Assembly (NCBI RefSeq): GCF_900095825.1
Contig: NZ_LT608315.1
Coordinates: 386,318 to 450,317 of the forward strand
DNA length: 64,000 bases
Source: Acidaminococcus massiliensis
Lineage (GTDB): Bacteria > Bacillota > Negativicutes > Acidaminococcales > Acidaminococcaceae
Direction of reading: 5' to 3'
Shown: in pieces, positions 35,766 through 50,893 of the stretch
How positions within the stretch are numbered: position 1 is the stretch's first letter
How the letters are laid out: each line of letters starts with the position of its first letter
Notes under the pieces: generated by a model
What the model saw: only the letters and a program-made list of their open reading frames with translations
Databases searched by the model: none
Told to the model about the DNA's origin: nothing
Program-made: the position numbers and the translations under genes

Positions 35766-36701
35766 TTATACAGTTCTCTTCTCCAAATACTGCCTAATAA
35801 AACTTTCAATGACTTGGAGGACTTCATCTTGGACCCAGTATGCTCCCCCATGTCCGGCACCCGGTATCACATACCGTTCACTGGGGATTCCTTGGGCCCG
35901 GAGAGCTTGGAAAAGCAAATCTGTCTGGCTGGGAGAGACTTCCAAATCTTCACTTCCATGCATCAACAAGATGGGAGAACTTTTTTTACTGATATAACAA
36001 AGGGGATTGGCAGCTGCTGCTCTTTCCGGATTGGCCTGAAGGCCTCCCGGACTGCCTCCAATCTGAGGTATTCCATTGACAAAAAGCGATTGGAGAGACC
36101 CTTCTGACCTATGGAATGCCTGGATTTCTTCACGATAGTCCTCGGCTGCTTTGGAAAGATCTGAAGGTCCATACAGACTGACTGCACAGCTTACGTCACT
36201 TTTTACCTGCAGGTTCTCCCCTTTATCAAACCGCGCTACACCATTTGTGATGCCAGCAAAAGAAGCCAGATATCCACCGGCACTGGCGCCTACCAGTGCT
36301 ATCCTCGTGGCATCCAGATTCCATCTCTCTGCATGGGACCGTAAATAACGGACGGCCCCTTTTACATCTTCCAGCGGTCCCGGGAACTGGGTACCGGGGG
36401 TCACCCGATACGCAACAGAGGCTACGGCGTACCCTCTTTCTGCCAGATAGTACCGCAGCTGCACTCCATTGTCCCGGTTGCTGAAGATAAATCCCCCGCC
36501 AGTAAGGAAAATGACCAGAGGCAGCGGCCCTTCCTGCTGGGGCTGCAGCAAATCCAGTGCCATAGGCATATTGGGGTATCCATGGCAGGAGACCTGCTCA
36601 TAGATGATCCCAGAAATTTGTTTGATTTCCTGCTTTTTCAAGGAAATTTCCAGGAAGTGACTGAAACCATACGTACTCGATCTTTCGTTGATCATATCCA
36701 T
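35766..36701 (-). CDS. alpha/beta-hydrolase, acetyl esterase type
   Basis: A 311-residue carboxylesterase/lipase-like hydrolase. FLTGGGF is the oxyanion-hole segment, GASAGG holds the nucleophilic Ser, HGSEDLEVSP the Asp, and GAGHGG the catalytic His. No signal peptide, so cytoplasmic. Similar enzymes (BD-FAE, Aes) remove acetyl or other short acyl groups from sugars or drugs. The start has GGAGG upstream. It stands between the Rpn region and the YitT gene on the minus strand and is not obviously part of the neighbouring pathway. Confidence 0.88.
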   Translation of the reverse strand: MDMINERSSTYGFSHFLEISLKKQEIKQISGIIYEQVSCHGYPNMPMALDLLQPQQEGPLPLVIFLTGGGFIFSNRDNGVQLRYYLAERGYAVASVAYRVTPGTQFPGPLEDVKGAVRYLRSHAERWNLDATRIALVGASAGGYLASFAGITNGVARFDKGENLQVKSDVSCAVSLYGPSDLSKAAEDYREEIQAFHRSEGSLQSLFVNGIPQIGGSPGGLQANPERAAAANPLCYISKKSSPILLMHGSEDLEVSPSQTDLLFQALRAQGIPSERYVIPGAGHGGAYWVQDEVLQVIESFIRQYLEKRTV

Positions 36702-36742: not shown

Positions 36743-37594
36743 TCACCAGGTGAATCCTTTTCCCACGACTTCATTCACATCCTGTATGGCCACAAAAGCC
36801 TGAGGATCCTCTTCCTGTACGATGGCTTTCAGCTGGGCCAGCTGGGTCAGTTTCAGGACCACCAGGAGGACTTGCAGTTTTCGGCGGGAATAAGCTCCTT
36901 CTCCCTGGAGGAAGGTCACCCCCCTGTCCAGTTCATGAAGGATCCGGGTACTGATATTCTCCGGCCTTTCTGTAATGATCAGGATGCTTTTCTTGAAATC
37001 GAACCCCACCACGAAGGTATTGGTAGATTTGAAGATCACAAAGAACATCATCATGCTGTACAGCACTGGAGTCAGCCCCAGAAAGAAAAGAGCCGCCAGC
37101 ATCAAGGTAAAATTGTACAGGAAATTGGTGGTCCCCACCGAAACATTGTAGTATTTCTGGCTCAGGAACCCTAGGATGTCCACTCCACCTGTGGTGGAAC
37201 CGGCCCGGAAAACCAGTGCATAGCCCAGTCCTGTCAGGACTCCGCCGGCAGCCAAACCGAGGATAGGATCCTCTACCTGGACTTTTCCCTGGAGAAAAGC
37301 CAACCCATCCAATGCCGCTGAAAAAAGGAAGGTTCCAATCAGGCTGTCCACAAAGAATTTCCGGCTGATATACCGCCAGGCCAGATAGAACAAAGGGAAA
37401 TTCAGCAGAAAACCTACCATCCCAGGAGGCCACCCGAAAAGATAGTAGAAAATAATGGCCAGCCCGGTAAGGCCCCCTGTCAGGAAATGATGGGGAACAA
37501 AAAAAATATGGAAAGCGCCAGCCATCAGGACACATCCTGCAAGGATGCTCCCATAACGGAGAAATGTCTGGGAAAAGGGTGTCCAGGGCTTCAA
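36743..37594 (-). CDS. YitT-family membrane protein (DUF161/DUF2179)
   Basis: A 283-residue membrane protein: five or six hydrophobic segments (about 15-200; e.g. GSILAGCVLMAGAFHIFFVP, GLAAGGVLTGLGYALVFRAGSTTGGVDIL) and a C-terminal soluble DUF2179 domain (about 200-283). Function unknown in general. The frame is open upstream into buk, but a TTG at 37594 (KPWTPFSQTFLRY) fits the family start best; no strong ribosome-binding site is seen there, and a start overlapping the end of buk is possible. Last gene of the minus-strand catabolic string. Confidence 0.8.
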   Translation of the reverse strand: MKPWTPFSQTFLRYGSILAGCVLMAGAFHIFFVPHHFLTGGLTGLAIIFYYLFGWPPGMVGFLLNFPLFYLAWRYISRKFFVDSLIGTFLFSAALDGLAFLQGKVQVEDPILGLAAGGVLTGLGYALVFRAGSTTGGVDILGFLSQKYYNVSVGTTNFLYNFTLMLAALFFLGLTPVLYSMMMFFVIFKSTNTFVVGFDFKKSILIITERPENISTRILHELDRGVTFLQGEGAYSRRKLQVLLVVLKLTQLAQLKAIVQEEDPQAFVAIQDVNEVVGKGFTW

Positions 37595-37604
37595 CTTTCG
37601 ACAG

Positions 37605-38714
37605 TCAGCCAAGATGGAACCCGTTCCAGCAGGGGATCCCCGTATAGGTTTTGGGTTCCTCTTCTCCGGTAAGGACCCGCAGGGCACCAGCTGCCAGTGC
37701 CTCCATTTCAAATTCTCCGGCCATTATTGTAACCGGCGCAATGAACTGCAGTTTCCGTTTCAGTTCTGCATCCACATAGGGATCATAGCTGATGCCCCCG
37801 GTCAGGACAATACCGTCCACCTTTCCTTCCAGGACTGCCGCCATGGCTCCGGCCTGTTTGGCAATCTGGTAAATCATGGCGTCATAGACCAATTTGGCAT
37901 ACCCGTCCCCGGCAGCGATCCTTTTTCCCACTTCCCGGGCATCACTGGTCCCCAGATGATCCACCAGGCCCCCATTCTTGGTGATTTTCTGATAGATTTC
38001 TTCTTCTGTGAACTTTCCGGAAAAGCACATCCGTACCACATCTTTCACCGGCAGAGCACCGCAGCGGGTAGGCGCCATCGGTCCGTCTCCCTGGGCGATG
38101 TCATTGGAATCGATCATCTTCCCTTTCCGATGGGCGGTAACGGAGATGCCGCCCCCGATATGGCAGATGATCAGATCTATCTCTTCATATCGTTTCCCCA
38201 GGCTTTTGGCATAACGGATCCCCACTTCTTTCTGGTTCAGGGCATGGAGCTTGCTTTCCCGGTAAAGGCCCTTGAGCCCGGTGATCCTAGCCTCATCGAT
38301 GAACTCATCCACATCAGGAGGATTGACGATGAAAGCCTGTCCCCCGTACTCTTCTACGAATTCATGGGCCAGCTGGGCTCCCAAAATGGCTGGATGCTGG
38401 ACACTGACTTTATTGCGCTGATCGGCCAGGATCCTGTCATTGACGGGATATGTACCCCCTACCACACTGACCAATCCTCCTCCCCTCCCTACGAAAGCAT
38501 CGGTACCAGTAAGGCTCTGATTGGCTTCTTGGAGAGCTTCCAGGATAGATTTCTTTCGATAAGCCAGCTGATCCAGGATTTCCCGGAACTGCTTCAGTTC
38601 AGCAGCTTCATGGGTGATATTTTTGCTGAACACTTCCACGTCTCCCTGGAAAAGGGCAATTTTAGTAGATGTAGAGCCTGGATTGATGGCAAATACTTTA
38701 TATTCCTTCATCAT
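37605..38714 (-). CDS. buk: butyrate kinase
   Basis: A 369-residue acetokinase-family enzyme that forms ATP and butyrate (or another short acid) from the acyl phosphate. Signatures: INPGSTSTKIALF near the N-terminus, the acidic GRGGGLVSVVGGTYPV, ICHIGGGISVTAHRKGKMIDSNDI and TGGISYDPY. Typical length is 355-370. GGAGG lies before the start. It is separated from ptb by a transporter gene and a hairpin, an unusual order since ptb and buk are generally adjacent. Confidence 0.95.
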   Translation of the reverse strand: MMKEYKVFAINPGSTSTKIALFQGDVEVFSKNITHEAAELKQFREILDQLAYRKKSILEALQEANQSLTGTDAFVGRGGGLVSVVGGTYPVNDRILADQRNKVSVQHPAILGAQLAHEFVEEYGGQAFIVNPPDVDEFIDEARITGLKGLYRESKLHALNQKEVGIRYAKSLGKRYEEIDLIICHIGGGISVTAHRKGKMIDSNDIAQGDGPMAPTRCGALPVKDVVRMCFSGKFTEEEIYQKITKNGGLVDHLGTSDAREVGKRIAAGDGYAKLVYDAMIYQIAKQAGAMAAVLEGKVDGIVLTGGISYDPYVDAELKRKLQFIAPVTIMAGEFEMEALAAGALRVLTGEEEPKTYTGIPCWNGFHLG

Positions 38715-38741
38715 ATGATTCCTCCCAACAGGATAAAAAGA

Positions 38742-38779
38742 GCCAGGAACGGAAATCTTGTAAATTTCCAGCTCCTGGC
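38742..38779 (-). terminator. hairpin between transporter and buk
   Basis: GCCAGGA/TCCTGGC with inner GGAAAT/ATTTCC and, on the minus strand, a CTCTTTTT tail. It may lower buk expression relative to the upstream genes. Confidence 0.65.
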
Positions 38780-38789
38780 AAAAGCAGCA

Positions 38790-40136
38790 TCACAGCATGA
38801 AAAGCGGATACAGAAGCCCCAGCCAGATGACCATTAGGGCCCCTCCGATCCGGGTGGAAATAGAGGCAAAAGCCAGAAGGTCCATCCGTTTGGCAGCGGT
38901 CAGCACGGCGATATCTCCGGAACCGCCGATATTGCAGCAGCACAGGCCGGCGGTAACTCCGGCTTCATAGGGATACAGCCCGGCAAGGCGGCCGAAAAGC
39001 ATGGCCCCCACCATGGCACCCAAGACTCCCAAGAAAATCACAAGCAGCACGCCGCCGGAGAAATAGCTGGTCAGGTCGGTGATGCGCAGGGAGCAGACCC
39101 CGATGCCGGCAATCAGCATGGGCAGCATGGCCTTCAGGGCAAACTGCATAGAATAGACGCAGTCATAGGACACATCTTCCGGCAGGATGTTAGTGGTCTT
39201 GATCAGAATGGCCAGGATGATGGTCCAAGCCAGGCCGGCAATGTGATTCAGCCCCGGGATGTGGGCCAGCAGGACGCCAGCCAGGTAGAGGACCAGAGCC
39301 ATGAAGATGCCCCCGCCCAGTTTCTTGTAATCGGCAGAAGTCACGTCTCTCTTTTCCCCCTTGACTTCATCTTCTGCTTCAATAGCATCTTGGTTCATCA
39401 GGATCTTCCCCCGCCCGTTGAGACCAGGGATCTTTTCTGTAAGAGGACCGCCGACAGCGGCAAAGAGTACGGCCAGTACATTGGAAATGGAGGCATAACA
39501 GAGGAACTGTCCTGCCAGCCCCGTCAGATCCTTTCCCGCCAGATTGGAATACAGAGCCGGCAGCGTGGTCATAGCACCGGCAGAACCGCCGGACATGCAG
39601 GGAGCGCCTACATAGAACATTCCTTCTTTCCAGCCGAACCCGGTGAGCCAGCCTCCCAGGATGCAGAAGCCCAAGGCAAAGACCTGGCTTCCTACCACTG
39701 TGGGCAGATACCGCACGGTAGCCTTCATCAGCACTTTCCGATCCATGACCAGGACGGATCCCACCAGCAGGAGAGCGATATAGGCATCCTGGAACCCTGT
39801 TTTCATCAGGACACGGCATCCATTGACCAAAGTCTGGGGAATCATGCCCATATAATTCATGAGAGAGGCCCCGAACAGAGGCAGCAGGCAGGAACCGCCC
39901 AGATATTTATTGACGATGGGAACCGCGTCCCCAAGCCAGAAAAAGAGCCCGCCGACCGCCATCAGGAAAGCTCCAGTGGCAATGTAGTTGGTCGCCACAT
40001 ATTTTCCTGCTGTATTGGCATAGACCGTGGTGGTAGGCAGCCAGCCCATATAGGTACAGATCATGATGATCAGGAAAAATGGCAGGAAATATTTGAACTG
40101 CAGTCCGCAAACTTGGAATTGGATATCTTGTTTCAT
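38790..40136 (-). CDS. 2-hydroxycarboxylate transporter (2HCT/CitS family)
   Basis: A 448-residue secondary transporter with about 11 membrane segments. The two inverted halves each have a GGxG re-entrant loop: GGSAGAMTTLP in the first half and CNIGGSGDIAVLTAA in the second, the hallmarks of the CitS/MleP/CitP family, which exchange or take up citrate, malate or related 2-hydroxy acids with Na+ or H+. The exact substrate cannot be read from the sequence. It is placed between ptb and buk in the catabolic string. Confidence 0.92.
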   Translation of the reverse strand: MKQDIQFQVCGLQFKYFLPFFLIIMICTYMGWLPTTTVYANTAGKYVATNYIATGAFLMAVGGLFFWLGDAVPIVNKYLGGSCLLPLFGASLMNYMGMIPQTLVNGCRVLMKTGFQDAYIALLLVGSVLVMDRKVLMKATVRYLPTVVGSQVFALGFCILGGWLTGFGWKEGMFYVGAPCMSGGSAGAMTTLPALYSNLAGKDLTGLAGQFLCYASISNVLAVLFAAVGGPLTEKIPGLNGRGKILMNQDAIEAEDEVKGEKRDVTSADYKKLGGGIFMALVLYLAGVLLAHIPGLNHIAGLAWTIILAILIKTTNILPEDVSYDCVYSMQFALKAMLPMLIAGIGVCSLRITDLTSYFSGGVLLVIFLGVLGAMVGAMLFGRLAGLYPYEAGVTAGLCCCNIGGSGDIAVLTAAKRMDLLAFASISTRIGGALMVIWLGLLYPLFML

Positions 40137-40155
40137 ATGAAATTCCCCTTGTCTT

Positions 40156-41052
40156 TTAACAGCCGTGGCCGATCAGGGCAGCCACTACAATGGACATGTA
40201 TTTATCATCGGCAGAAGCGGCCCGGGAAACCAGGAGCACCGGAACTTTTGCACCCAGGACCACCCCACCGGTCCTGCCGCCTCCGATGACCGTGATGGCC
40301 TTGGCCACCGCATTGGCTGCCACGATATCCGGCAGTACCAGCAGATCCGCATCCCCTGCCACCGGACTTTCATAGCCTTTGATCCGGGCCGCTTCCGGAT
40401 CCATGGCCAAGTCCAGACTGATGGGCCCTTCCAGTGTGCAGCCGGGGATACCTTCCCGTTTGATGGCATCCGCTTCCACCGTTTCCGGCATCTTGGGGTT
40501 CACTTTTTCCACAGCAGCAAGCATGGCCACCTTAGGATCCTTTTCTCCCAAAGCATGGAAAGCGCCTACCGCATTGCGGATTTCCGCTTTTTTCTGTTCC
40601 AGATCCGGATAGGTCAGAAGAGCCGGATCCGTAATGGCGAATACTTTGTGGTAATAAGGACTTTCAAAGAATCCCACCAGGCTCATGATGTCCCCAGTGC
40701 GGATTCCCGTATCCTTGTTCACCAGGACCTTCATCAACGTCCCGGTCTGACATTTGCCCTTCATGATACAGTCCACCCGGCCTTCCCGGGCCAAGTCCGC
40801 TGCTTTCTGGATACATGCCACCGGATCTTCCAGGTCGATGATGTCCACTTCCAGTTCTGGGCAGCCGATTTTTTCCAGGATTTCCAGGATTTCTGTTTCT
40901 TTTCCAATCAGTACCGGACGGACCAAACCGTCCCGAGCAGCCTGGCTCACCGCCTGGAGGGTATGTTCATCCTGGGCTACAGCTACTGCCACCCGCCGTT
41001 TCCCCTGCTGCTGCCGGAGCATTTCTTTCATCTGTTCAAAATTTTTCAGCAT
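40156..41052 (-). CDS. ptb: phosphate butyryltransferase
   Basis: A 298-residue phosphotransacylase-family enzyme converting butyryl-CoA plus phosphate to butyryl phosphate. Typical parts: DCIMKGKCQTGTLMKVLVNKDTGIRTG, VFAITDPALLTYPDL, GPISLDLAMDPEAARIKGY and GADLLVLPDI-like DADLLVLPDIVAAN, with a final KVPVLLVSRAASADDKYMSI. The ATG at 41052 is preferred over GTG at 41055. It follows the fused dehydratase gene by 15 bases. Confidence 0.95.
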   Translation of the reverse strand: MLKNFEQMKEMLRQQQGKRRVAVAVAQDEHTLQAVSQAARDGLVRPVLIGKETEILEILEKIGCPELEVDIIDLEDPVACIQKAADLAREGRVDCIMKGKCQTGTLMKVLVNKDTGIRTGDIMSLVGFFESPYYHKVFAITDPALLTYPDLEQKKAEIRNAVGAFHALGEKDPKVAMLAAVEKVNPKMPETVEADAIKREGIPGCTLEGPISLDLAMDPEAARIKGYESPVAGDADLLVLPDIVAANAVAKAITVIGGGRTGGVVLGAKVPVLLVSRAASADDKYMSIVVAALIGHGC

Positions 41053-41067
41053 CACGGCACTTCCTTC

Positions 41068-42864
41068 TCAAAGTTTCCGAGGATCAGTCACTACGCCAGT
41101 AAGAGCCGTAGCCGCTGCCACTGCTGGACTGCATAGATAGCTCAGGGTCTTCTTGGTTCCCTGCCTGCCGATGAAATTCCGATTGGCTGTAGAGAGGATC
41201 CGCTCATCGTCATACATCAGCCCATAGGGCATACCGCAGCACAGCCCGCAGCAAGGATGGCAGATGACAGCCCCTGCTTCGATGAAGGTCCGGATATAGC
41301 CTCGCCGGATGGCTTCCTTAAAGACCGCATTGGTGGCAGGAACCACAATGAACCGCATGGTTTCCGGCACGTGTTTTCCCTTCAGGATTTCTGCAGCAAT
41401 GGCCAGGTCCTCGATGCTCCCGTTGGTACAGCTGCCCAGATAAACTTCATCCATGGGAGTCCCTTCCACCTCTCGGATAGGATGGACATTATCCACGCCC
41501 TGAGGACAGGACAGCTGGGGTTCCAATTCATTCACATCATAGGTCAGTACTTTTTCGTACTGGGCCTCTTCGTCCATGGTCACCCAATCGATTTCCGAAA
41601 GGGGGACGCCATAGTAATCGGCCGTTTTCTGATCTGCCTCAAAAAGACCGCATTTGGCTCCTGCTTCCAAGGCCATGTTGGCCACAGTGAACCTAGCATC
41701 CATGCTCATTTCATGAGCGGCCGGACCGGTAAATTCCAGGCTCTTGTATTGTCCTCCATCCGCCTTGATATCCCCCAGGATTTTCAGGATCACATCTTTA
41801 GACAGGACCCCTTTGGGCAGATGCCCATTCAGGACGATTTTGATGGCTTCCGGGATCTTGAACCACAGTTCCCCGGTAATCAAGGCCGCCGCCATTTCCG
41901 CCGTCCCGATGCCGCTGCAGAAACACCCGGCTCCTCCGTAGGTGGTGGTATGGCTGTCCGTTGCTGTGGCTACGCAGCCCGGTCTGGCATACTTTTTTTC
42001 ATGCATCAGGCTGTGGCAGATCCCTTCCCCGATGTGGAGTTTTTCGATTCCGTACTCTTTGGCCAGTTCCAGTCCTGCATCATAATGAGCCGAGTCATTT
42101 TTCGCCACCGCCGTAGGCATGCAATGGTCGAACACAATGGTCACCCGGTCCGGAGCAAAGATTTTTTTGGCTCCGATTTGGTGAAGGGTATCCAGCAGAT
42201 AAGGGGTATAGATATCATGGATCATGAACATATCCGGGTGGGAAATCACGATATCCCCTGGTTTGACCTGTTCTACTCCCGCATTTTTCCGCAGAATCTT
42301 TTCCGCCAGGGTAAAGCCTTTCCTGCGCCGTTCCCGGTCATCCAGTTCTTTATGGGGTTCCGGCTGGAACCCTCCTGCCAATCTCCGTTTCGTATCGGCA
42401 ATCAACCCACCGTGAGCTACGATATCGAAAAGATTCTGGGGAATGGCACCTACAGGGAACTCCTTCCCATTGGCGCTGACCTTGTGCTGTTCCAGGTCGA
42501 CAGTGACGATGTCACCTCCCTTTACCACATCCTGGATCCCATCACAGGTCAGCAGGATGATGCCGCTGTTAAAGGCATTCCGAAAGAAAATCCGAGCAAA
42601 GCTTTTGGCGATGATGCACCGTACTCCATTGTGGCTGAGGACCGTAGCTGCCTGCTCCCGGGAAGACCCGCAGCCGAAATTGCTGCCTGCCACCAGGATA
42701 TCCCCTGGCCGTACCGTAGACCCAAATTCCGGTTTCAGCAGCTCAAAAGCATACTTCTTCATTTCTTCGATGGTGGGAATGGTGCCTCGCTTGCCGGGGA
42801 TGATGGTATCCGTATCGATATCATTGCCAAAGGTCCAGATCCTTCCGCTGAAAACTTTCTCCAT
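41068..42864 (-). CDS. fused LeuD-LeuC-type (aconitase family) hydratase/dehydratase
   Basis: A 598-residue protein with the small subunit first: LeuD-like swivel domain (about 1-165; NDIDTDTIIP, AGSNFGCGSSREQA) joined by a charged linker (about 166-182, ELDDRERRRKG) to a LeuC-like large domain (about 183-598). All three cluster ligands are present: Cys479 in GSCTNG and Cys539 and Cys542 in CGLC; TDSHTTTYGG and NRNFIGR are intact, so an active [4Fe-4S] enzyme is expected. Separate leuC and leuD are the rule for isopropylmalate dehydratase; the fusion and the catabolic neighbours suggest a hydratase for aconitate, citramalate or a related acid rather than leucine synthesis. Confidence 0.88.
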   Translation of the reverse strand: MEKVFSGRIWTFGNDIDTDTIIPGKRGTIPTIEEMKKYAFELLKPEFGSTVRPGDILVAGSNFGCGSSREQAATVLSHNGVRCIIAKSFARIFFRNAFNSGIILLTCDGIQDVVKGGDIVTVDLEQHKVSANGKEFPVGAIPQNLFDIVAHGGLIADTKRRLAGGFQPEPHKELDDRERRRKGFTLAEKILRKNAGVEQVKPGDIVISHPDMFMIHDIYTPYLLDTLHQIGAKKIFAPDRVTIVFDHCMPTAVAKNDSAHYDAGLELAKEYGIEKLHIGEGICHSLMHEKKYARPGCVATATDSHTTTYGGAGCFCSGIGTAEMAAALITGELWFKIPEAIKIVLNGHLPKGVLSKDVILKILGDIKADGGQYKSLEFTGPAAHEMSMDARFTVANMALEAGAKCGLFEADQKTADYYGVPLSEIDWVTMDEEAQYEKVLTYDVNELEPQLSCPQGVDNVHPIREVEGTPMDEVYLGSCTNGSIEDLAIAAEILKGKHVPETMRFIVVPATNAVFKEAIRRGYIRTFIEAGAVICHPCCGLCCGMPYGLMYDDERILSTANRNFIGRQGTKKTLSYLCSPAVAAATALTGVVTDPRKL

Positions 42865-42880
42865 AATTGCTTCTCCCCTT

Positions 42881-43999
42881 TTATAAACTCTTGGTCCAGG
42901 ATGCCCGGATCACCGTTTCCACAGAAGCCGTATACACGGAGGAGTCCGGCACCCCCATACAGCCGGCATAGGTATAGAGCCCCGTAGTCACCAGAGTTTC
43001 TCCCCTGCCGATGACGCCGGCTCCCTGCCGTACTTCACTGCGGTCCCCTGCTGCCTGGATCTGTGCCCCATAATCGATGAAGTGTTCGATGATTCCTTCC
43101 TCCATTGCCTTGATGTAATCTGCGCTGGTGGCCGGGCAAACGCTCAGCCGGAAGCCCTTGGCCAGTTGCTTTCCCTGGATCAGATGATCAGCCCGCCGCA
43201 GGTCCTCGATGGTCCCGCCTGTATACCCGCCGATCTGGCCGGCTTCCACCGACCTGCCCCGCAGTTGAGAAACTGGGAAGATGGGCGCCGTCTTTTGATT
43301 TTCCCGGCGGCCGCAGGGGCCTACGGCCATGGCTCCGCAGCCGTCCAATTTCAGGACCCGGTCAGGCGTCCCGGCATCTGTACAAATCGCTGAAAAAGCG
43401 CCGGTTCCGCAGACCATGCTGCAGAACACGCTTTTCTGATGGAGATTCCACTGGGGAGCGATGATCTGGAGCATTTTCCCTGAAATATCCTTATTTTCAG
43501 TTAAAAACTGCAAGGCCGCATCCATGCTGCTGATTCCTTCCGGCAGGGTTCCCTGGATTCTCACCGTCAAGGTCTCTGGTACCACCACCTGATAGCTTCC
43601 GCTTTCCAAAATCCTGGCCAATTCCAAGGGGCTAACATCGATTCCCAAGGCACCTGCGGCCCCCAGAATGGAAGCATGAAAGCCGCCGCCCACCAAGATC
43701 TGTCCCGGCTGGACGATATGGAGCAGGCATTCATACGCACTTCCCAGCGCCTGATGAAAAGCAATCCCATATTTTTTAGCAAAATCTCGGAGGATGTCGA
43801 ACACATGGGACGCTTCCGGATCTCCGGTCGGGACATTGTGGTCAAAATAAAGCTGGACCTTGGCTGGCTGTGCCACGTTCTGTGCTTCCAGTACCGCTTG
43901 ATGGGCCACGCCATTGGTCACCAGCAACCAGTCCGGCTGGAAGGAAACCACAGTCCCTGCAGGAGCACCCAATATTTTTTCAATCAAGGGAGTTGCCAT
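42881..43999 (-). CDS. LeuC-like aconitase-family protein lacking Fe-S ligands
   Basis: A 372-residue protein aligned over its length with LeuC-type large subunits (FDHNVPTGD, GGFHASILGAAGALGI near the TDSHT region, GGTIEDLRRADHLIQGK). The cluster ligands are replaced: Tyr259 for the first Cys (GGYTGG for GSCTNG), Asp319 and Glu322 for the CxxC pair (GDRSE for GCGPC). The substrate-binding NRNFxGR is LYTYAGC. A [4Fe-4S] cluster therefore cannot bind in the usual manner. It lies between PFOR and the fused LeuD-LeuC, spaced 16 bases from the latter. Possible roles are a cluster-free enzyme, such as an isomerase, or a partner of the fused enzyme. Confidence 0.72.
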   Translation of the reverse strand: MATPLIEKILGAPAGTVVSFQPDWLLVTNGVAHQAVLEAQNVAQPAKVQLYFDHNVPTGDPEASHVFDILRDFAKKYGIAFHQALGSAYECLLHIVQPGQILVGGGFHASILGAAGALGIDVSPLELARILESGSYQVVVPETLTVRIQGTLPEGISSMDAALQFLTENKDISGKMLQIIAPQWNLHQKSVFCSMVCGTGAFSAICTDAGTPDRVLKLDGCGAMAVGPCGRRENQKTAPIFPVSQLRGRSVEAGQIGGYTGGTIEDLRRADHLIQGKQLAKGFRLSVCPATSADYIKAMEEGIIEHFIDYGAQIQAAGDRSEVRQGAGVIGRGETLVTTGLYTYAGCMGVPDSSVYTASVETVIRASWTKSL

Positions 44000-44094
44000 T
44001 TTTTACCGTCTCCTTTTTATCAAGCCGCTTTCCTCTGCTTCTTCCCAGGAAGCAGAGGAAATACAGCCTGTTCTTCCATTTCTGATGCTGTCTG

Positions 44095-47000
44095 TTATTG
44101 ATTTTCTTTCATTGCCGCCAGTTCTTTGTAGCAGGCAAACCGTTCCCGAGCATCCTGTTCACTCTTGGCATAGAGAGCCGGCGCAATTTCCGGGAACTTC
44201 CGAGCCAGGCTGGAATACCGCACTTCTCCTTGGAGAAAAGCCTGATAATCGCCGGTAGGTTCCTTGCTGTCCAACTGGAAAGGATTCTTCCCTTCTTCGA
44301 TCCGACGGGGATCATACCGGTACAGCTGCCAGTAGCCGCATTCTACAGCTTTCTTCATCTCCGCCATCACATTCCCCATGCCGCAGCGCAGGCCATGGTT
44401 GATGCAGGGAGAATAGCAGATGATCACAGAAGGGCCAGGATAGCTTTCCGCTTCCTGGACGGCTTTCAGCAGCTGGCCAGGATTGGCCCCCATTGCTACC
44501 TGTGCCACATAGACGTCCCGATAGCTCATGGCCATCATGCCCAGGTCCTTTTTCTTGGTCCGTTTCCCCGCGGCCGCAAACTGGGCCACAGCAGACCGGG
44601 GACTGGATTTAGAAGCCTGTCCGCCGGTATTGGAATAGACTTCTGTATCGAAGATCATCATGTTCACATTGGCTCCGGTGGAAATCACATGATCCAAGCC
44701 GCCGTAGCCGATATCATAAGCCCAGCCGTCACCGCCAAAGATCCAGATGGATTTTTTCCGCAGGTGTTCTGCATTGGCTCGGATATAATCCAGGGTTTCC
44801 TGAGCCCGAGCCGGGACCTGGGCCTGTGCCAACGCCTTTTTAAAGGCATCGCTGGCCGTCCCGCTCAGCTTTTCATCATCGAAGCTGTCCATCCAGGCTC
44901 TGGCAGCTTCCGCCAGTCCGCTGTCCGCCGGCAGGGCTGCCAGCAGTTCTTCCACCTTGCTGTACAGTGCTTTCCTCTGCTGTTCCACGGAAAGGCTGAT
45001 CCCCATGCCGAATTCCGCATTGTTTTCAAACAGGGATCCTCCCAGCGCCGGTCCGAACCCTTTCTTGTCCTTGCAGTACGGGAAGCTGGGGAAGCTGGTG
45101 GCCCAGACCTGGCTGCAGCCGGTAGCCGTGGCAATGTACATATGGTCCCCATAAAGCTGGGTCACCAGTTTGGCATAAGGTGTCTCTCCGCAGCCGGCGC
45201 AGGCACCGCTGAATTCCAGCAGGGGCTGGTTGAACTGGCTGTTTTTGACAGTCTGTACCCCGTAGGGATTCCGGACTTCCGGCAGCCCATCCAGATATTC
45301 CCAGTTGGCTCCTTCTTTTCTCTGGCTGTCCAGAGGTTCCATGGAAATGGCCTTCACCGGACAGACACTGACGCAGCTGCCGCAGCCCTGGCAGTCCAGG
45401 ACAGCCACCTGCATGCGGAATTTGAGATTGCTGGCTTTGGGCCGGGTGTCGGCCACCGCCATGGGTTCCGGAGCCTTCGCCACTTCTTCCGGTGTCAGCA
45501 GGAAGGGCCGGATGGCCGCGTGGGGACATACATAGGAACACTGGTTGCACTGGATGCATTTGGCAGCATCCCAGGCAGGGACTTTCACCGCTACGCCCCG
45601 TTTTTCATATTTGGAAGTGGCCTGAGGCCAAGTTCCGTCATTCCAGTCTTTGAAAGCGCTGACAGGGAGTTCGTCCCCGTGCATGGCATTCACCGGTTCC
45701 AAGATTTTCGTGATGAATTCGGGCACATCCTTCCGAGGCTGGGGCTTTTCATCCGGTAAATCGGCCCAGGATTCCGGATAATGGATTTCCACGGCACCGC
45801 CGATGCCCCGGTCCACTGCTGCATAGTTCATGTTCACGACCTTTTCCCCTTTGCGGCCGTAGCTCTTCAGAGCAGCTTCTTTCATATACTGCACTGCCTG
45901 ATTATCAGGGATGATCCCGGTAATGTGGAAGAAAGCTGCCTGGAGGATGGTATTGGTCCGATTGCCCAGCCCCAGTTCTGCCGCAATGGATACGGAATCG
46001 ATCACGTAGAAACGGATGTGTTTTTGGGCAATGGCACGGCGCATGGCAGCCGGCAGATGGGCATCCAGTTCCTCTACCGTTTTCCAGTCACAGGCCAGGA
46101 AGAAGCTGCCTTCCGGCTTCAGGTCGCTGATCAGGTCATAGGTCTGTACATACGCCTTGTTGTGGCAGGCCACGAAATCAGCATGGCGCACCAGATAACT
46201 GCTGCGGATAGGTGTATCCCCGAACCGGAGATGGCTCTTGGTGACCCCGCCGGACTTCTTGCCGTCATATTCGAAATAGGCCTGGACATATTTGTCCGTA
46301 TGGTCTCCGATGATCTTGATGGTGTTTTTGTTGGCTCCCACCGTCCCGTCAGAGCCAAGGCCCCAGAACTTGCAGCTGTAGGTACTGCTCGGGATGATGT
46401 TGATTTCCTTCCCAACAGCCAGGGAACGATGGGTCACATCATCGTTGATGCCGATGGTGTAGTGGTTGGCTGGGGCCACCTGTTCCATGTTTTTGTACAT
46501 AGCCACGATCTGGGCCGGAGTGGTATCCTTGCAGGCCAGGCCGAAGCGGCAGGCATACACTGGAAGATTGCTGCGGTATTCCTTCAGGACGGAGCAGACA
46601 TCTTCATAAAGAGGTTCCCCGGTAGCTCCCGGTTCCTTGGTCCGGTCCAATACCGTCACAGCTTTGACGGTGGAAGGCAGAGCCTTCAGCAGATACTGTA
46701 CCGGGAAAGGCCGGTACAGATGGACATCCAGATAGCCCACTTTCTTTCCCTGCTGCCGCAGGTAATCAATAGTTTCTGCGGCAGTTTCCGCCACGCTGCC
46801 CATGCCGATGAGGACCAGCTCCGCTTCCGGATCACCGTAATAATTCACACAGTGGTATTCTTTTCCGGTGAGGGCGCTGATTTTCTCCATATAGCCTTCT
46901 ACAATGGCTGGCAGCGCATCATAATATGGATTCATAGCTTCCCGGCATTGGAAATAAGTATCTGCATTCAGACCCGCAGTCCGCAGCAGGGGCCGTTCCG

Positions 47001-47625
47001 GATTCAAGCTCCGCTTCCGGAATTTTTCCAATTCCTGCCAGTCCACCAGCTTGGCCAGATCCTGGAAATCCAGCACATCGATTTTCTGGATCTCGTGACT
47101 GGTCCGGAACCCATCGAAGAAATGGAGAAAAGGCACATGTCCTTTGATGGCGGACAGATGGGCCACGGCCCCCAGGTCCATGCATTCCTGCACGCTGGAA
47201 GAAGCCAGGAGGGCAAAACCGGTCTGCCGGCAGGCCATCACATCGGAATGTTCTGCGAAAATGGAAATGTTGTTGGCAGCCACGTTCCTGGAAGCAGCAT
47301 GGATCACCGCCGGCTTCAGCTCCCCAGCAATCCGGTACATGGTAGGGATCATGAGCATCATGCCCTGACTGGCGGTATAGCTGGTGGCCAGGCTCCCGGC
47401 ATCCAGTGCCCCGTGCATGGAGGCCACTGCACCGGCTTCGCTCTGCATTTCCACCAGTTTCACCGGCTGCCCAAATATATTCTTCATTCCATTGGCCGCC
47501 CAAGTGTCCACATGGTCGGCCATGGGGCTGGACGGAGTGATCGGGTAGATGGCTGCTACCTCCGTAAACGCATAAGAGGCATAGGCCGCAGCTTCATTCC
47601 CGTCCATGGTTTTCTTGTGTGCCAT
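44095..47625 (-). CDS. nifJ: pyruvate:ferredoxin (flavodoxin) oxidoreductase
   Basis: A 1176-residue single-chain PFOR converting pyruvate and CoA to acetyl-CoA, CO2 and reduced ferredoxin. N-terminal YPITPSSPMADHVD; domain order of the homodimeric enzymes; two [4Fe-4S] motifs in the ferredoxin-like domain (CIQCNQCSYVCP at about 690 and CQGCGSCVSVCP at about 750); CAGCGETPY; TPP-binding GDGWAYDIGYGGLDHV followed by NVNMMIFDTEVYSNTGGQ. Length is normal. It is the first gene of the minus-strand catabolic string and has a consensus promoter overlapped by LacI-type operators. Confidence 0.97.
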   Translation of the reverse strand: MAHKKTMDGNEAAAYASYAFTEVAAIYPITPSSPMADHVDTWAANGMKNIFGQPVKLVEMQSEAGAVASMHGALDAGSLATSYTASQGMMLMIPTMYRIAGELKPAVIHAASRNVAANNISIFAEHSDVMACRQTGFALLASSSVQECMDLGAVAHLSAIKGHVPFLHFFDGFRTSHEIQKIDVLDFQDLAKLVDWQELEKFRKRSLNPERPLLRTAGLNADTYFQCREAMNPYYDALPAIVEGYMEKISALTGKEYHCVNYYGDPEAELVLIGMGSVAETAAETIDYLRQQGKKVGYLDVHLYRPFPVQYLLKALPSTVKAVTVLDRTKEPGATGEPLYEDVCSVLKEYRSNLPVYACRFGLACKDTTPAQIVAMYKNMEQVAPANHYTIGINDDVTHRSLAVGKEINIIPSSTYSCKFWGLGSDGTVGANKNTIKIIGDHTDKYVQAYFEYDGKKSGGVTKSHLRFGDTPIRSSYLVRHADFVACHNKAYVQTYDLISDLKPEGSFFLACDWKTVEELDAHLPAAMRRAIAQKHIRFYVIDSVSIAAELGLGNRTNTILQAAFFHITGIIPDNQAVQYMKEAALKSYGRKGEKVVNMNYAAVDRGIGGAVEIHYPESWADLPDEKPQPRKDVPEFITKILEPVNAMHGDELPVSAFKDWNDGTWPQATSKYEKRGVAVKVPAWDAAKCIQCNQCSYVCPHAAIRPFLLTPEEVAKAPEPMAVADTRPKASNLKFRMQVAVLDCQGCGSCVSVCPVKAISMEPLDSQRKEGANWEYLDGLPEVRNPYGVQTVKNSQFNQPLLEFSGACAGCGETPYAKLVTQLYGDHMYIATATGCSQVWATSFPSFPYCKDKKGFGPALGGSLFENNAEFGMGISLSVEQQRKALYSKVEELLAALPADSGLAEAARAWMDSFDDEKLSGTASDAFKKALAQAQVPARAQETLDYIRANAEHLRKKSIWIFGGDGWAYDIGYGGLDHVISTGANVNMMIFDTEVYSNTGGQASKSSPRSAVAQFAAAGKRTKKKDLGMMAMSYRDVYVAQVAMGANPGQLLKAVQEAESYPGPSVIICYSPCINHGLRCGMGNVMAEMKKAVECGYWQLYRYDPRRIEEGKNPFQLDSKEPTGDYQAFLQGEVRYSSLARKFPEIAPALYAKSEQDARERFACYKELAAMKENQ

Positions 47626-47680
47626 TTGAATTCTCCCTTTCTAATGCTTGTTTTTCAGGTTACGCGTGACTCAAAATAGC

Positions 47681-47692
47681 TAAAACGTTTTA
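47681..47692. promoter_or_regulatory. LacI-type operator O1
   Basis: TAAAACGTTTTA, a perfect 12-base palindrome with central CG typical of LacI-family sites, just downstream of the PFOR -10 box. Confidence 0.75.
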
Positions 47693-47701
47693 CTTGATTG
47701 C

Positions 47702-47730
47702 ATTATAGTAAATCGTTTTAGCATTGTCAA
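47702..47730 (-). promoter_or_regulatory. PFOR operon promoter with operator O2 in its spacer
   Basis: Minus strand TTGACA (47725-47730), exactly 17 bases, TATAAT (47702-47707): full consensus. The spacer holds TAAATCGTTTTA (47709-47720), a second copy of the operator word, so a bound regulator would block RNA polymerase. Confidence 0.85.
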
Positions 47731-47851
47731 TTCTCCATAACTGTACATTTTATTTAATCAGTTTTAACGATTCATTCCCATAATTTCTTGATTTTGCTTT
47801 TTTATATTACATATTTCATCCTATCATTAACTTTACTGAACTTACTAACCA

Positions 47852-47880
47852 TTGACGATTTTACTGATATTTACTATAAT
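47852..47880 (+). promoter_or_regulatory. promoter of lacI-family gene
   Basis: TTGACG (47852-47857), 17 bases, TATAAT (47875-47880), 38 bases before the start. Between this and the PFOR promoter (47731-47851) I see only A/T-rich sequence with TTTAACGATT at about 47760. Confidence 0.8.
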
Positions 47881-47917
47881 TTACTAAACAATATGTTCTG
47901 CAAAAAGGAGCTTTTCT

Positions 47918-48931
47918 ATGCCAACCATAAAAGATGTGGCCGCTGCGGCCAAAGTCTCTCCCACCACCGTCTCCCTGGTCATGAACGGCCGGGGACCGGA
48001 ACATCGGATCCCGGAAAGCACCATCGAACGGATCCGGACCGCTATGCGGGAACTGGGATACCAGCCCAATCTCAGTGCCCGCCGTCTCCATGATAAGGAT
48101 GAACACAAACCAGTCATCGCCTTTTTCTGGCCGTTGGACTATCGGGCCAACCTGATGGGGTATTTCCTCTCCCTGATCCAGAATGCCCTAAAAGAAAAAG
48201 GGAAAGACTGCGAACTGTTGGTCCGTCCCTACATCAACGACCGGATCTCGAAATCCTGTTCTGAGCTGATCAAGAACAATTACACGGGGGCCATCATCGG
48301 AGCTGCCAGTGAAAAAGACATCCGTTATCTGGAAAGCCTGGATCTCCAACTGCCCCTGGTGCTGATCAACCGGGAAAGCAACAAATTCAGCACTTCCGGC
48401 TGTGACAGCAATAAAATCGCTCTCCAGGCGGCCAGCCTGATCCGTCAGAAAGGCTATAAAAAGATTGCTCTCATCCAAAGCGGCACTCGTTATATGGCTA
48501 CATCCCGAAGGACGGAAGCCTTTCTCTTTGTCTGCCGGCAGTTCGGGATCCAGGTTCCGGATAGCTGGATTTTCCATGGGATCAACAACCCAGAGGGCGG
48601 AGCAGCTGCCACAGAAAGCCTCTGCGCCCAAAAAGAAAAGCCTCAAATGATCCTGTGCGAAAGCGATGCCATGGTCTCCGGAGTCCTCTATACTCTGCAC
48701 AGATACGGCTTCCGAGTTCCCAGGGATCTGGAACTATTGAGTTTCGCCACCCAGAATCCCCAGAATACTCGTTACCTGATTCCCTCGGTCAGCACCGTGG
48801 CCATGCCCAGTGACGACATCGTCCGGCAGGCGGTGAATGCTTTGCTGGCCCAGATCAGTACGGGAAGCCGGGAACCGGTCCACATCGAAAATGAAGCCCG
48901 GATCGAGCTCCATGAGTCCTTTACCCTGTGA
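47918..48931 (+). CDS. LacI-family transcriptional regulator
   Basis: A 337-residue regulator: N-terminal HTH (TIKDVAAAAKVSPTTVSLVMNG) and hinge (ARRLHDK), then a periplasmic-binding-protein-like ligand domain (about 65-335). AAGGAG precedes the start. It is divergent from the PFOR operon and upstream of the OadA-like gene; TAAAACGTTTTA-like palindromes, the kind of site LacI regulators use, occur at both promoters, so it probably represses both when its ligand is absent. The ligand is not shown by the sequence. Confidence 0.92.
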   Translation: MPTIKDVAAAAKVSPTTVSLVMNGRGPEHRIPESTIERIRTAMRELGYQPNLSARRLHDKDEHKPVIAFFWPLDYRANLMGYFLSLIQNALKEKGKDCELLVRPYINDRISKSCSELIKNNYTGAIIGAASEKDIRYLESLDLQLPLVLINRESNKFSTSGCDSNKIALQAASLIRQKGYKKIALIQSGTRYMATSRRTEAFLFVCRQFGIQVPDSWIFHGINNPEGGAAATESLCAQKEKPQMILCESDAMVSGVLYTLHRYGFRVPRDLELLSFATQNPQNTRYLIPSVSTVAMPSDDIVRQAVNALLAQISTGSREPVHIENEARIELHESFTL

Positions 48932-48941
48932 CCCATCACAA

Positions 48942-48984
48942 AAATGGAGGGGTGCTGCACGAAATATGCAGCACCCCTCCATTT
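48942..48984 (+). terminator. lacI-family gene terminator
   Basis: An 18-bp stem (AAATGGAGGGGTGCTGCA and complement), 7-base loop, T-run. It abuts the -35 of the following promoter. Confidence 0.9.
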
Positions 48985-48989
48985 TTTTA

Positions 48990-49046
48990 TTGACAAAACA
49001 AAAAAATCATGCAAAAATAAGTTAAACGTTTTAGTGAAACGATTTA
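48990..49046 (+). promoter_or_regulatory. promoter and LacI-type operators O3/O4 of OadA-like gene
   Basis: TTGACA (48990-48995), 17 bases, a poor -10 AAAAAT preceded by TGC. Then TTAAACGTTTTA (49022-49033) and TGAAACGATTTA (49035-49046), matching the operator words upstream of PFOR. Confidence 0.7.
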
Positions 49047-49098
49047 GCAAGCTTGCAAAAAGAATTCTTTGATCCCTTAGACAGGGAAAGGAGTTGTG

Positions 49099-50508
49099 AT
49101 GGAATTGTCGGCGGAACAACAGACAAAAAAAACAGGACCCTCTACTGGCGGGCCTTCTTTTGCCAGTACAGCACCTGTCCAGTTCAACAGTGTAGAATTC
49201 CGGGATGGAATCCAGTCCCTGCTGGCTACCCGGGTAAAAACCGAAGAAATGATCCCGTTTCTTTCCCGGATGGACCAGCTCGGCTATGCATCCATGGAAA
49301 TGTGGGGAGGCGCAACTTTTGACGTCTGCATCCGCTTTCTCCAGGATGATCCTTGGGACCGGGTCCGTACCTTCAAACGGTATATGAGACATACTCCGCT
49401 GAAAATGGTCCTCCGGGGCCAGAATCTGGTGGGCTACCATGCTTATCCAGACGACATCGTGGAAAAGTTCGTGGAATGTGCTGCCAAGGCCGGCATCGAT
49501 GTTTTCCTGATCTTCGATGCCCTGCAGGATCTGCGGAACTGTGAGACCGCCTTCCGGGCGGTACAAAAAATGGGCAAAAAAATCGAGGGGAGCCTCCAGT
49601 ACAACCTGAGTCCCCTCAACACCATCGATACTTTTGTGAAAAACGCCCTGACGCAGCAAAAAATGGGAGCCCAGCTCATGCATGTGGAAGACATGGCCGG
49701 CCTGATGACTCCTCCTATGGCTTATACCCTGATCCACGCCCTGAAAGAGGCTCTGGATATCCCAGTCCATCTCCACTGTCACTGTACCGGAGGCATGGCG
49801 GAAATGTGCTATTGGGAAGCCATCCGGGCGGGCGCTGACGGAGTAGATGTGTGCGTTTCAAGCCTGGGCCTGGGGCCCGGACATCCCCCCATCGAAAGTT
49901 TCATTGCAGGCTTGCGTGGGACCTGCCGGGATCCCCAGATCGACTTGGCTCCCTTTGCAGCCCTGAACAAGGGATTCCAGTATCTCCGGGAGCTCCACAA
50001 GGATGTAGAAAGCCAGCTGATCGGGGTTGATGTGGGATGCCTCCAGCACCAGGTACCGGGCGGGATGCTCACCAACCTGGAAAACCAGCTGAAAGCCATG
50101 AACGCCTTGGACTGTCTCCCGGAAATCCTGGAAGAAGTCACCCGGGTCCGGAAGGACATGGGTTATCCTCCCCTGGCTACCCCCAGCAGCCAGATCTGTG
50201 GGGCCCAGGCCACCAGCAATGTGCTGATGGGAGAACGGTACAAATTCATCAGCAAGGAAATGCGGGACTACTGCCGAGGCATGTACGGCTGTCCTCCCGG
50301 TCCCATCGCTCCGGAGCTGCTGCAGAAAGCCCTGGGCGGAAAAGCGCCCATTGACTGCCGGCCGGCCAGCCTGCTGGAACCGGGCTGGGAAAAAGCCAAG
50401 AGAGATGCCGGAAGCCTGGCCCGCAGCGAGGAAGATGTGCTGACCTATGCTCTCTTCCCCACCGTTGCACCGGATTTCCTGAAGAAAAAGTACCATTGGG
50501 AGGCCTGA
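49099..50508 (+). CDS. OadA/PycB-type carboxyltransferase-domain protein without biotin domain
   Basis: A 469-residue TIM-barrel protein resembling the carboxyltransferase part of oxaloacetate decarboxylase alpha or pyruvate carboxylase B (WGGATFDVCIRFLQDDPWDR, LRGQNLVGY, LHCHCTGGMAEM, GGMLTNL). Differences: the N-terminal motif is RDGIQ (Asp36) rather than RDAHQ, and Glu197 in HVEDMAG stands where the family has the carbamylated Lys of KDMAG. The C-terminus has no biotinyl domain or MKM motif. It may be a biotin-free lyase or decarboxylase, or need a separate biotin carrier, not in this window. AAAGGAG precedes the ATG; it is paired with the CMD gene. Confidence 0.85.
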   Translation: MELSAEQQTKKTGPSTGGPSFASTAPVQFNSVEFRDGIQSLLATRVKTEEMIPFLSRMDQLGYASMEMWGGATFDVCIRFLQDDPWDRVRTFKRYMRHTPLKMVLRGQNLVGYHAYPDDIVEKFVECAAKAGIDVFLIFDALQDLRNCETAFRAVQKMGKKIEGSLQYNLSPLNTIDTFVKNALTQQKMGAQLMHVEDMAGLMTPPMAYTLIHALKEALDIPVHLHCHCTGGMAEMCYWEAIRAGADGVDVCVSSLGLGPGHPPIESFIAGLRGTCRDPQIDLAPFAALNKGFQYLRELHKDVESQLIGVDVGCLQHQVPGGMLTNLENQLKAMNALDCLPEILEEVTRVRKDMGYPPLATPSSQICGAQATSNVLMGERYKFISKEMRDYCRGMYGCPPGPIAPELLQKALGGKAPIDCRPASLLEPGWEKAKRDAGSLARSEEDVLTYALFPTVAPDFLKKKYHWEA

Positions 50509-50512
50509 AATC

Positions 50513-50893
50513 ATGAAACAAGAAAATCTTGAAAAACTGGCCCAAAGCCGCCAGTTCCTGGCACAACTGAAGCAAGCCCGGGGAGGGTCCATTATGGACA
50601 GCCACCGGAAAATGGGCAATGACCCCATGCTGGTCAAAGCTTTTCTGGACGGGTACAAAGACAATGCGTCCGATACCCAGATTCCCCGAAAGTATCGGGA
50701 ACTGATCGTCATGGCTATCGGCATGGCCACAGGTACCGATACCACCATGAAAGTCCATGCCCGGCTGGCTCAGGAAAATGGCGCCACCGTAGACGACATC
50801 TGCGAAGTCATCCGGATCATCTTCTTCACCTGCGGCGTCACAAAACTCCTGCCCATCCTGGAAAAGCTGGATCTGGAACCAGTGGAAGATTGA
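50513..50893 (+). CDS. carboxymuconolactone decarboxylase (CMD/AhpD-like) family protein
   Basis: A 126-residue helical CMD-domain protein (about 45-115: RKYRELIVMAIGMATGTDTTMKVHARLAQENGATVDDICEVI). The Cys pair of AhpD-type peroxidase partners (CxxC before the His) is missing: TDTTMKVH keeps only the His. A decarboxylase or lactonase-like role for the neighbouring pathway is possible; the family also includes many proteins of unknown role. It starts 4 bases after the OadA-like stop with GGGAGG upstream, so both form one operon. Confidence 0.82.
   Translation: MKQENLEKLAQSRQFLAQLKQARGGSIMDSHRKMGNDPMLVKAFLDGYKDNASDTQIPRKYRELIVMAIGMATGTDTTMKVHARLAQENGATVDDICEVIRIIFFTCGVTKLLPILEKLDLEPVED

Follow-up and report, generated by a model that had tools for sequence, protein, structure and literature searches.

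We analysed a nine-gene locus at positions 37605-50893 of the window, by which we mean a 64 kb stretch of the Acidaminococcus massiliensis genome (G000, 2,669,996 bases; contig C4:386318-450317). A minus-strand operon in the order PFOR - LeuCx - LeuDC - Ptb - 2HCT - Buk, with intergenic gaps of 12-95 bp, is accompanied on the plus strand by lacI and then oadA*-cmd. Profile scores agreed with the open reading frames and family assignments of all nine genes as an earlier note on this DNA had placed them. The minus-strand operon opens with pyruvate:ferredoxin oxidoreductase (PFOR; 44095-47625), which scored 1744 against TIGR02176 (cut-off 911). It is followed by LeuCx (42881-43999; PF00330, 77 versus 28.7), a LeuC paralogue that has lost its Fe-S ligands and catalytic Arg pair, and by a fused LeuD-LeuC protein, LeuDC (41068-42864; PRK00402, 504 versus 385; TIGR02087, 176 versus 109), which has the Fe-S ligands, the catalytic residues and a KRGTI loop. 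The operon continues with a Ptb-like phosphotransacylase (40156-41055; PF01515 (PTA_PTB), 146 versus 24) and a carrier of the 2-hydroxycarboxylate transporter (2HCT/CitS) family (38790-40136; PF03390, 421 versus 26.2, E 4.5e-126), and ends with Buk, of the butyrate kinase family (37605-38714; TIGR02707, 435.6 bits versus 289.1). On the plus strand lie a LacI-family regulator (47918-48931; PF00356 and PF13377), OadA* (49096-50508; PRK09282, 611 versus 402), a carboxyltransferase-domain protein with Glu198 and no biotin domain, and a CMD-family protein (50513-50893; PF02627, 50.9 versus 23).

Scores against the narrower equivalog profiles fell below the cut-offs for the Ptb-like protein (TIGR02706, 276.8 versus 410.5), OadA* (oadA, 573 versus 756), the CMD protein (PcaC, 32 versus 156), LeuDC (isopropylmalate isomerase LEU2, 427 versus 610.65; homoaconitase HacA, 401 versus 550) and the carrier (CitS, 246 versus 600). 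The CitS shortfall is a hint, and the sole clue from the carrier, as to citrate being its substrate.

Conservation of the cluster and its operator words

Complete clusters, defined by the presence of PFOR, LeuCx, LeuDC, Ptb, 2HCT, Buk, LacI, OadA* and CMD, were found in the window and at six other loci: L034 (G005), L035 (G003), L039 (Gemmiger sp. An120), L041 (Clostridiales 1_7_47FAA), L204 (G952) and L205 (G951). Buk is present and the CMD gene adjoins OadA* in all seven, and LacI relatives 40-54% identical to that of the window lie between PFOR and oadA* in the other six. LeuDC is ~80% identical among clusters, and LeuCx is 46-57% identical to the window copy. A partial cluster in a Gemmiger metagenome-assembled genome (L040) holds about two-thirds of PFOR, a 272-residue piece of OadA and a piece of Ptb; no 2HCT match was found there, and LacI was found only at a looser threshold. 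Within the genus, three of nine genomes carry the cluster and a fourth (G006) carries a diverged relative, L036. The cluster was found in the window's own genome alone in a phylum sample of 398 genomes, LeuDC was detected at E<=1e-250 in two of 395 relatives of G951 (G951 itself and G952), and 51 plasmid records all showed less than 60% identity. The cluster is rare among the genomes sampled. We recognised no description of it in the open-licence literature, judged by titles and the beginnings of abstracts. Its main interest is that two apparently remodelled enzymes, LeuCx and OadA*, have been kept together across distant Bacillota.

The PFOR operon is preceded by a promoter-like site that matches the sigma-70 consensus at 12/12 positions (TTGACA-17-TATAAT; 47702-47730, minus strand), with one operator word, TAAATCGTTTTA (47709-47720), inside its spacer and another, TAAAACGTTTTA (47681-47692), downstream; the two words are 28 bp apart. 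The promoter-like site of oadA*-cmd (TTGACA-17-AAAAAT; 48990-49018, plus strand; 10/12 positions) is followed, beginning 4 bp after its end, by the words TTAAACGTTTTA (49022-49033) and TGAAACGATTTA (49035-49046), which are 13 bp apart. A further promoter-like site lies before lacI (TTGACG-17-TATAAT; 47852-47880, plus strand; 11/12 positions), and a scan of the window allowing up to two mismatches placed no operator word on it. In that scan TAAAACGTTTTA had four matches in 64 kb, all in this locus, compared with 0.62 expected, and four matches were reached in one of 100 shuffles. The four words described in the earlier note are thus where it placed them and nowhere else in the window, and its assignment of them to both promoters holds, since they lie on or beside the promoter-like sites of the PFOR operon and of oadA* and similar words occur in related clusters.

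We also scored operator words upstream of PFOR and upstream of oadA* in the seven complete clusters, 14 regions in all, leaving aside L040 and two related loci, L136 and L137. A word with up to two mismatches was present in 11 of the 14 regions (500 first-order resamplings: mean 1.1, maximum 4). Two words with up to three mismatches each, exactly 13 bp apart, were present in nine of the 14 (resamplings: mean 0.02, maximum 1), a count that is favoured by our having picked the 13 bp spacing after an earlier look at words in relatives. Regions L034_O and L035_O, of L034 and L035, had no word or pair at these thresholds, but did have a three-mismatch word. Even with the post hoc spacing the signal is far stronger than chance, and we regard the words as candidate operators. 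A global regulator was considered as their source and rejected: the genome has just two exact copies of WAAACGWTTTAG, each of them in this locus, although the argument is weak, since the backwards control also occurs twice.

Remodelling of LeuCx and OadA*

To compare LeuCx with its relatives we tabulated residues at the presumed aconitase positions D100, H101, S166, R447 and R452. We added the mitochondrial-aconitase positions C358, C421, C424, H147, D165 and H167 as given in an excerpt of PMC8184944. Equivalents of C421, C424, R447, R452, H147 and D165 were lost in all eight cluster-type LeuCx sequences, and that of C358 in seven, the window copy included (L041 has Cys there); D100, H101 and H167 were retained in all eight. 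The description of this protein as ligand-free in the earlier note is therefore borne out. Every tabulated position was intact in six canonical rows and in ten cluster LeuC2 rows, one of which, from the further locus L202, was unreadable at the Cys and Arg sites. Among the five diverged LeuCx rows, none has the Arg pair.

LeuCx formed a single group in our trees (13 rows, support 100/99), albeit one with long branches, and joined the LeuC1 proteins of tandem LeuD1-C1-D2-C2 sets (23 rows, support 100/97-98), while cluster LeuC2 did not form one group (2 changes). These tandem sets (L121-L134, in relatives of Clostridiales 1_7_47FAA, and L201) are the known arrangement whose LeuC1 and LeuC2 are nearest to LeuCx and cluster LeuC, respectively. 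They differ from the cluster in having two LeuD genes and intact ligands, all tabulated positions being kept in both LeuC copies of the ten sets in the tree, and some have ilv-like genes or leuB as neighbours (by eye). LeuCx is therefore the sister of a fully liganded LeuC1 and would, most simply, descend from a functional enzyme. An AlphaFold2 model of LeuCx (pLDDT 88.6, pTM 0.87) matched the Methanocaldococcus jannaschii HacA/LeuC large subunits with TMq values of 0.86 (best PDB match 4kp2) and 0.84, so that LeuCx is predicted to have the aconitase large-subunit fold. Because the catalytic Arg pair and the Fe-S cysteines are lost while the LeuC fold is predicted, LeuCx is probably a catalytically dead twin of LeuC, and we infer that it is kept as a non-catalytic partner.

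Two other identities for LeuCx were rejected. Aconitase X is contradicted by PF00330 being the sole Pfam match and by a TMq of 0.56-0.61 to AcnX versus 0.86 to LeuC/HacA; a decayed pseudogene is contradicted by the intact frame, the constant position in all complete clusters and the level of identity to the window copy. A search of the phylum sample for further LeuCx returned 26 loci from 25 other genomes, and 25 of these loci have a C-x-x-C-type ligand motif. L083, which lacks it, retains GSCTNG and DSHT, some loci without GSCTNG and DSHT retain C-x-x-C, and L084 is a tandem LeuC1. In a genome-contig collection LeuCx was found in three of 23 loci (L039-L041), the other 20 keeping at least one of GSCTN, C-x-x-C and DSH. 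Of these 20, L060 and L061 are truncated and L059 is split over two frames.

The window LeuDC keeps the equivalents of the three Cys ligands, H147, D165-S166-H167, R447 and R452, and is presumed to be an active dehydratase or isomerase. Its closest solved relative is the M. jannaschii isopropylmalate/citramalate isomerase. The small-subunit recognition region determines specificity in isopropylmalate isomerase and homoaconitase, according to a portion of PMC7308503. This loop reads KRGTI in the cluster-type LeuDC and RRGTI in L205, for all seven complete clusters; that of L040 was not readable. The polar loop argues for a substrate with a polar substituent. In the tandem sets the loop is YLLx in the five LeuD1 and YLAx in the five LeuD2 that were read, suggesting two different substrates there. 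One such set (L122:1042-12725, G528) lies among acyl carrier protein-, ketosynthase- and reductase-like genes (by eye), possibly a natural-product locus.

OadA* (470 residues) aligns over its full length with PycB, oxaloacetate decarboxylase alpha and transcarboxylase 5S, and retains the RD..QS, HxH and TPSSQ motifs. For the Vibrio cholerae oxaloacetate decarboxylase, Lys178 has been put forward as the residue that receives the carboxyl group (excerpt of PMC2881705). Residue 178 of the 2nx9 alignment row stands opposite residue 198 of the window protein, a Glu, and all seven complete clusters read HVEDMAG at this site; the L040 piece does not span it. The same genome's second OadA, Pyc, a second OadA of L040 and three PDB rows keep the lysine (IKDM or LKDM). 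RxFD has likewise become LxFD in all seven clusters; the three PDB rows and both second OadA proteins, that of the window's genome and that of L040, retain its Arg. A Pfam profile search found no biotin domain in the OadA* chain and no carrier beside the gene; the genome's three biotin/lipoyl matches lie elsewhere (a GcdC-like protein, Pyc and one marginal match). Because Lys178 is replaced by Glu and the RxFD Arg by Leu, and no biotin domain is present, biotin-dependent carboxyl transfer by the proposed route is unlikely. OadA* is thus probably not a biotin carboxyltransferase; metal-stabilised enolate formation may nevertheless be possible. The genome's second OadA (L002:1492-2868), with its usual lysine, has no biotin match at its place and lies near a masked stretch.

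Proposed pathway, substrate and alternatives

The cluster, conserved in gut anaerobes, most likely gains energy by fermenting a small hydroxy acid. We consider it reasonably probable that this acid is a 2-hydroxydicarboxylate bearing a polar substituent and that LacI represses the unit, and we infer the following steps. The 2HCT carrier would import the hydroxy acid, which the Fe-S enzyme LeuDC would dehydrate or isomerise with LeuCx, its non-catalytic twin, as a structural or regulatory partner. OadA*, metal-dependent and probably biotin-independent, perhaps with help from CMD, would use decarboxylation or aldol-type cleavage to release pyruvate or a close 2-oxoacid via an enolate. PFOR would then form an acyl-CoA, Ptb an acyl-phosphate, and Buk ATP. 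In the presence of inducer LacI would leave the paired operators at both promoters. The catabolic route envisaged in the earlier note survives in its outline, since gene content and conservation agree with a LacI-controlled unit with a 2HCT-type carrier, a LeuCD-type enzyme and a PFOR/Ptb/Buk ending, but an ordinary decarboxylase is doubtful, given the replaced lysine of OadA*.

As to the substrate, we weakly prefer the tartrate/malate type, since a dihydroxy acid such as tartrate would yield oxaloacetate on dehydration, without a dehydrogenase, and would so explain OadA* before PFOR; citramalate and tricarboxylates are possible alternatives. In a more specific version, which seems to us rather unlikely as a whole, a LeuCD-type Fe-S enzyme paired with a dead LeuC twin would form oxaloacetate from a tartrate-like acid by dehydration, and an OadA free of biotin, its metal site remodelled by Glu, would convert this to pyruvate. 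A distant relative, L202 (L202:1698-19799, G696), combines a LeuCx relative, fused LeuD-LeuC, 2HCT and CMD with L-tartrate dehydratase (alpha and beta over the cut-off). It also encodes, below the cut-off, a galactarate-dehydratase-like protein and two homologues of LarA-type malate racemase. We take the tartrate dehydratase and the racemase homologues of this locus as points for the proposed pathway. In L036, LeuC is fused to an HMG/CHA aldolase-oxaloacetate decarboxylase-like domain (below cut-offs), which would share similar pyruvate-enolate chemistry and which we likewise count in its favour.

Several observations weigh against this pathway. OadA* is not universal, because the related loci L136 and L137 (both G474), in which LeuCx is fused to LeuD, have the core without it. 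L202 has a different recognition loop, and its CitG/CitX-type gene, of which the citX part is over the cut-off (142.7 versus 105.25), speaks for citrate-lyase-type chemistry no less than for tartrate. The diverged LeuCx proteins of L036 and L202 retain all three cysteines, and LeuCx might carry some other activity. A model of a natural LeuCx-LeuD fusion (pTM only 0.66) shows a known fold in each part but not the aconitase arrangement, and it yielded no usable docking of LeuD. The loop's basic residues might instead serve to bind a third carboxylate, the GcdC-like carrier could in principle serve OadA*, and five of the nine related catabolic loci carry a LeuB-like gene, which suggests an oxidation in those loci.

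That gene is central to an alternative in which LeuDC converts citramalate (or a 2-isopropylmalate-like acid) to 3-methylmalate, a LeuB-type enzyme forms 2-oxobutyrate, PFOR propionyl-CoA, and Ptb and Buk propionate and ATP. The solved isomerase nearest to LeuDC fits this route, as do Ptb and Buk, which presumably suit C3-C4 acyl groups better than acetyl. The LeuB-like proteins (LeuB*; L039:17529-18620, L041:8869-9978, L137:3402-4664, L204:3087-4184 and L205:16656-17735) appear to be a distinct set, however: in all five the GGxY tyrosine is replaced by F or L and HGSAPDIAG by NQLH, motifs that we take to be catalytic and, in the latter case, the NAD loop. No LeuB-like match was found in the 64 kb window, L034, L035, L136 or L040, and the window genome has no LeuB*, its four Iso_dh loci all lacking NQLH; one of these is LeuB-like with the usual loop and one a tartrate dehydrogenase (TIGR02089, 496 versus 470). 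The latter gene (L148:9423-10544) adjoins a LysR-looking frame on the opposite strand. Since the route also leaves OadA* without a place and the recognition loop is polar, we judge it unlikely.

The tricarboxylate route of the earlier note (citrate, aconitate, hydroxycitrate or similar) is more doubtful still. It is compatible with the carrier, whose family includes citrate carriers, with the basic loop residues and with the CitG/CitX-type gene of L202. Against it, aconitase-type turnover of citrate should end in 2-oxoglutarate, which PFOR does not usually accept. Acidaminococcus fermentans uses citrate and trans-aconitate, but the published trans-aconitate path runs via citrate and oxaloacetate (excerpt of PMC3035267). 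Citrate or aconitate as the default substrate is weakened because citrate lyase alpha is encoded in all nine genus genomes but the cluster in three, with the diverged relative in a fourth; these acids accordingly lose the leading place that the earlier note gave them. Its statement that citrate lyase is absent holds for the locus, yet three CitF genes occur in the genome. It is very unlikely that OadA* acts as a conventional biotin-dependent subunit of oxaloacetate decarboxylase, relying on the GcdC-like carrier and the GcdB-like pump that lie side by side elsewhere in the genome (names by eye), a pairing in keeping with the genus: OadA* is 45% identical to the second OadA, which has the lysine but likewise no biotin match at its place, but the Lys178 and RxFD replacements hold in seven of seven clusters while the lysine stays in the other proteins compared.

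If the tartrate version is true, the locus would encode another kind of tartrate dehydratase, and OadA* would stand for a branch of the carboxyltransferase family that needs no biotin. It provides defined test cases for the role of a conserved dead twin in an Fe-S hydro-lyase and for whether a biotin carboxyltransferase barrel has been converted to a biotin-free enzyme. The fermentation unit proposed here predicts a bacterial path that turns a hydroxy acid into a short-chain acid with formation of ATP, at genes in which standard annotation would tend to read leucine synthesis plus oxaloacetate decarboxylase.

Other genes accompany some of the clusters. A YitT-like membrane protein (by eye; family scores weak) follows Buk in all three genus clusters (window 36743-37711; L034:4567-5418; L035:15761-16471). 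Esterase-like alpha/beta-hydrolase genes lie near two clusters (window 35766-36701; L035:4500-5396), that of L035, named by eye, between lacI and PFOR. An MBL protein, presumably UlaG-like, is encoded in L039, L041, L136 and L137, with a piece in L040.

Compared with known systems, the locus resembles the CitS/2HCT citrate fermentation clusters, as we take these to be organised, in pairing a 2HCT carrier with an OadA-type gene, but it has no citrate lyase or Na+ pump and instead has LeuDC, PFOR, Ptb, Buk and LacI. OadA* shares with oxaloacetate decarboxylase alpha and transcarboxylase 5S (PDB 2nx9, 1rqb) the full-length alignment and the RD..QS, HxH and TP[ST]SQ motifs; it differs in its Glu for Lys178, its Leu for the RxFD Arg and its lack of a biotin domain, and no OadB or OadG gene lies in the locus. 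LeuDC shares with the isopropylmalate/citramalate isomerases (LeuC/LeuD; PDB 4kp1, 4nqy, 3vba) the Cys ligands, the DSH motif, the NRNFxGR arginines and the GSSRE motif, but here LeuD and LeuC are fused, the loop is KRGTI, and a LeuC twin without ligands has been added.

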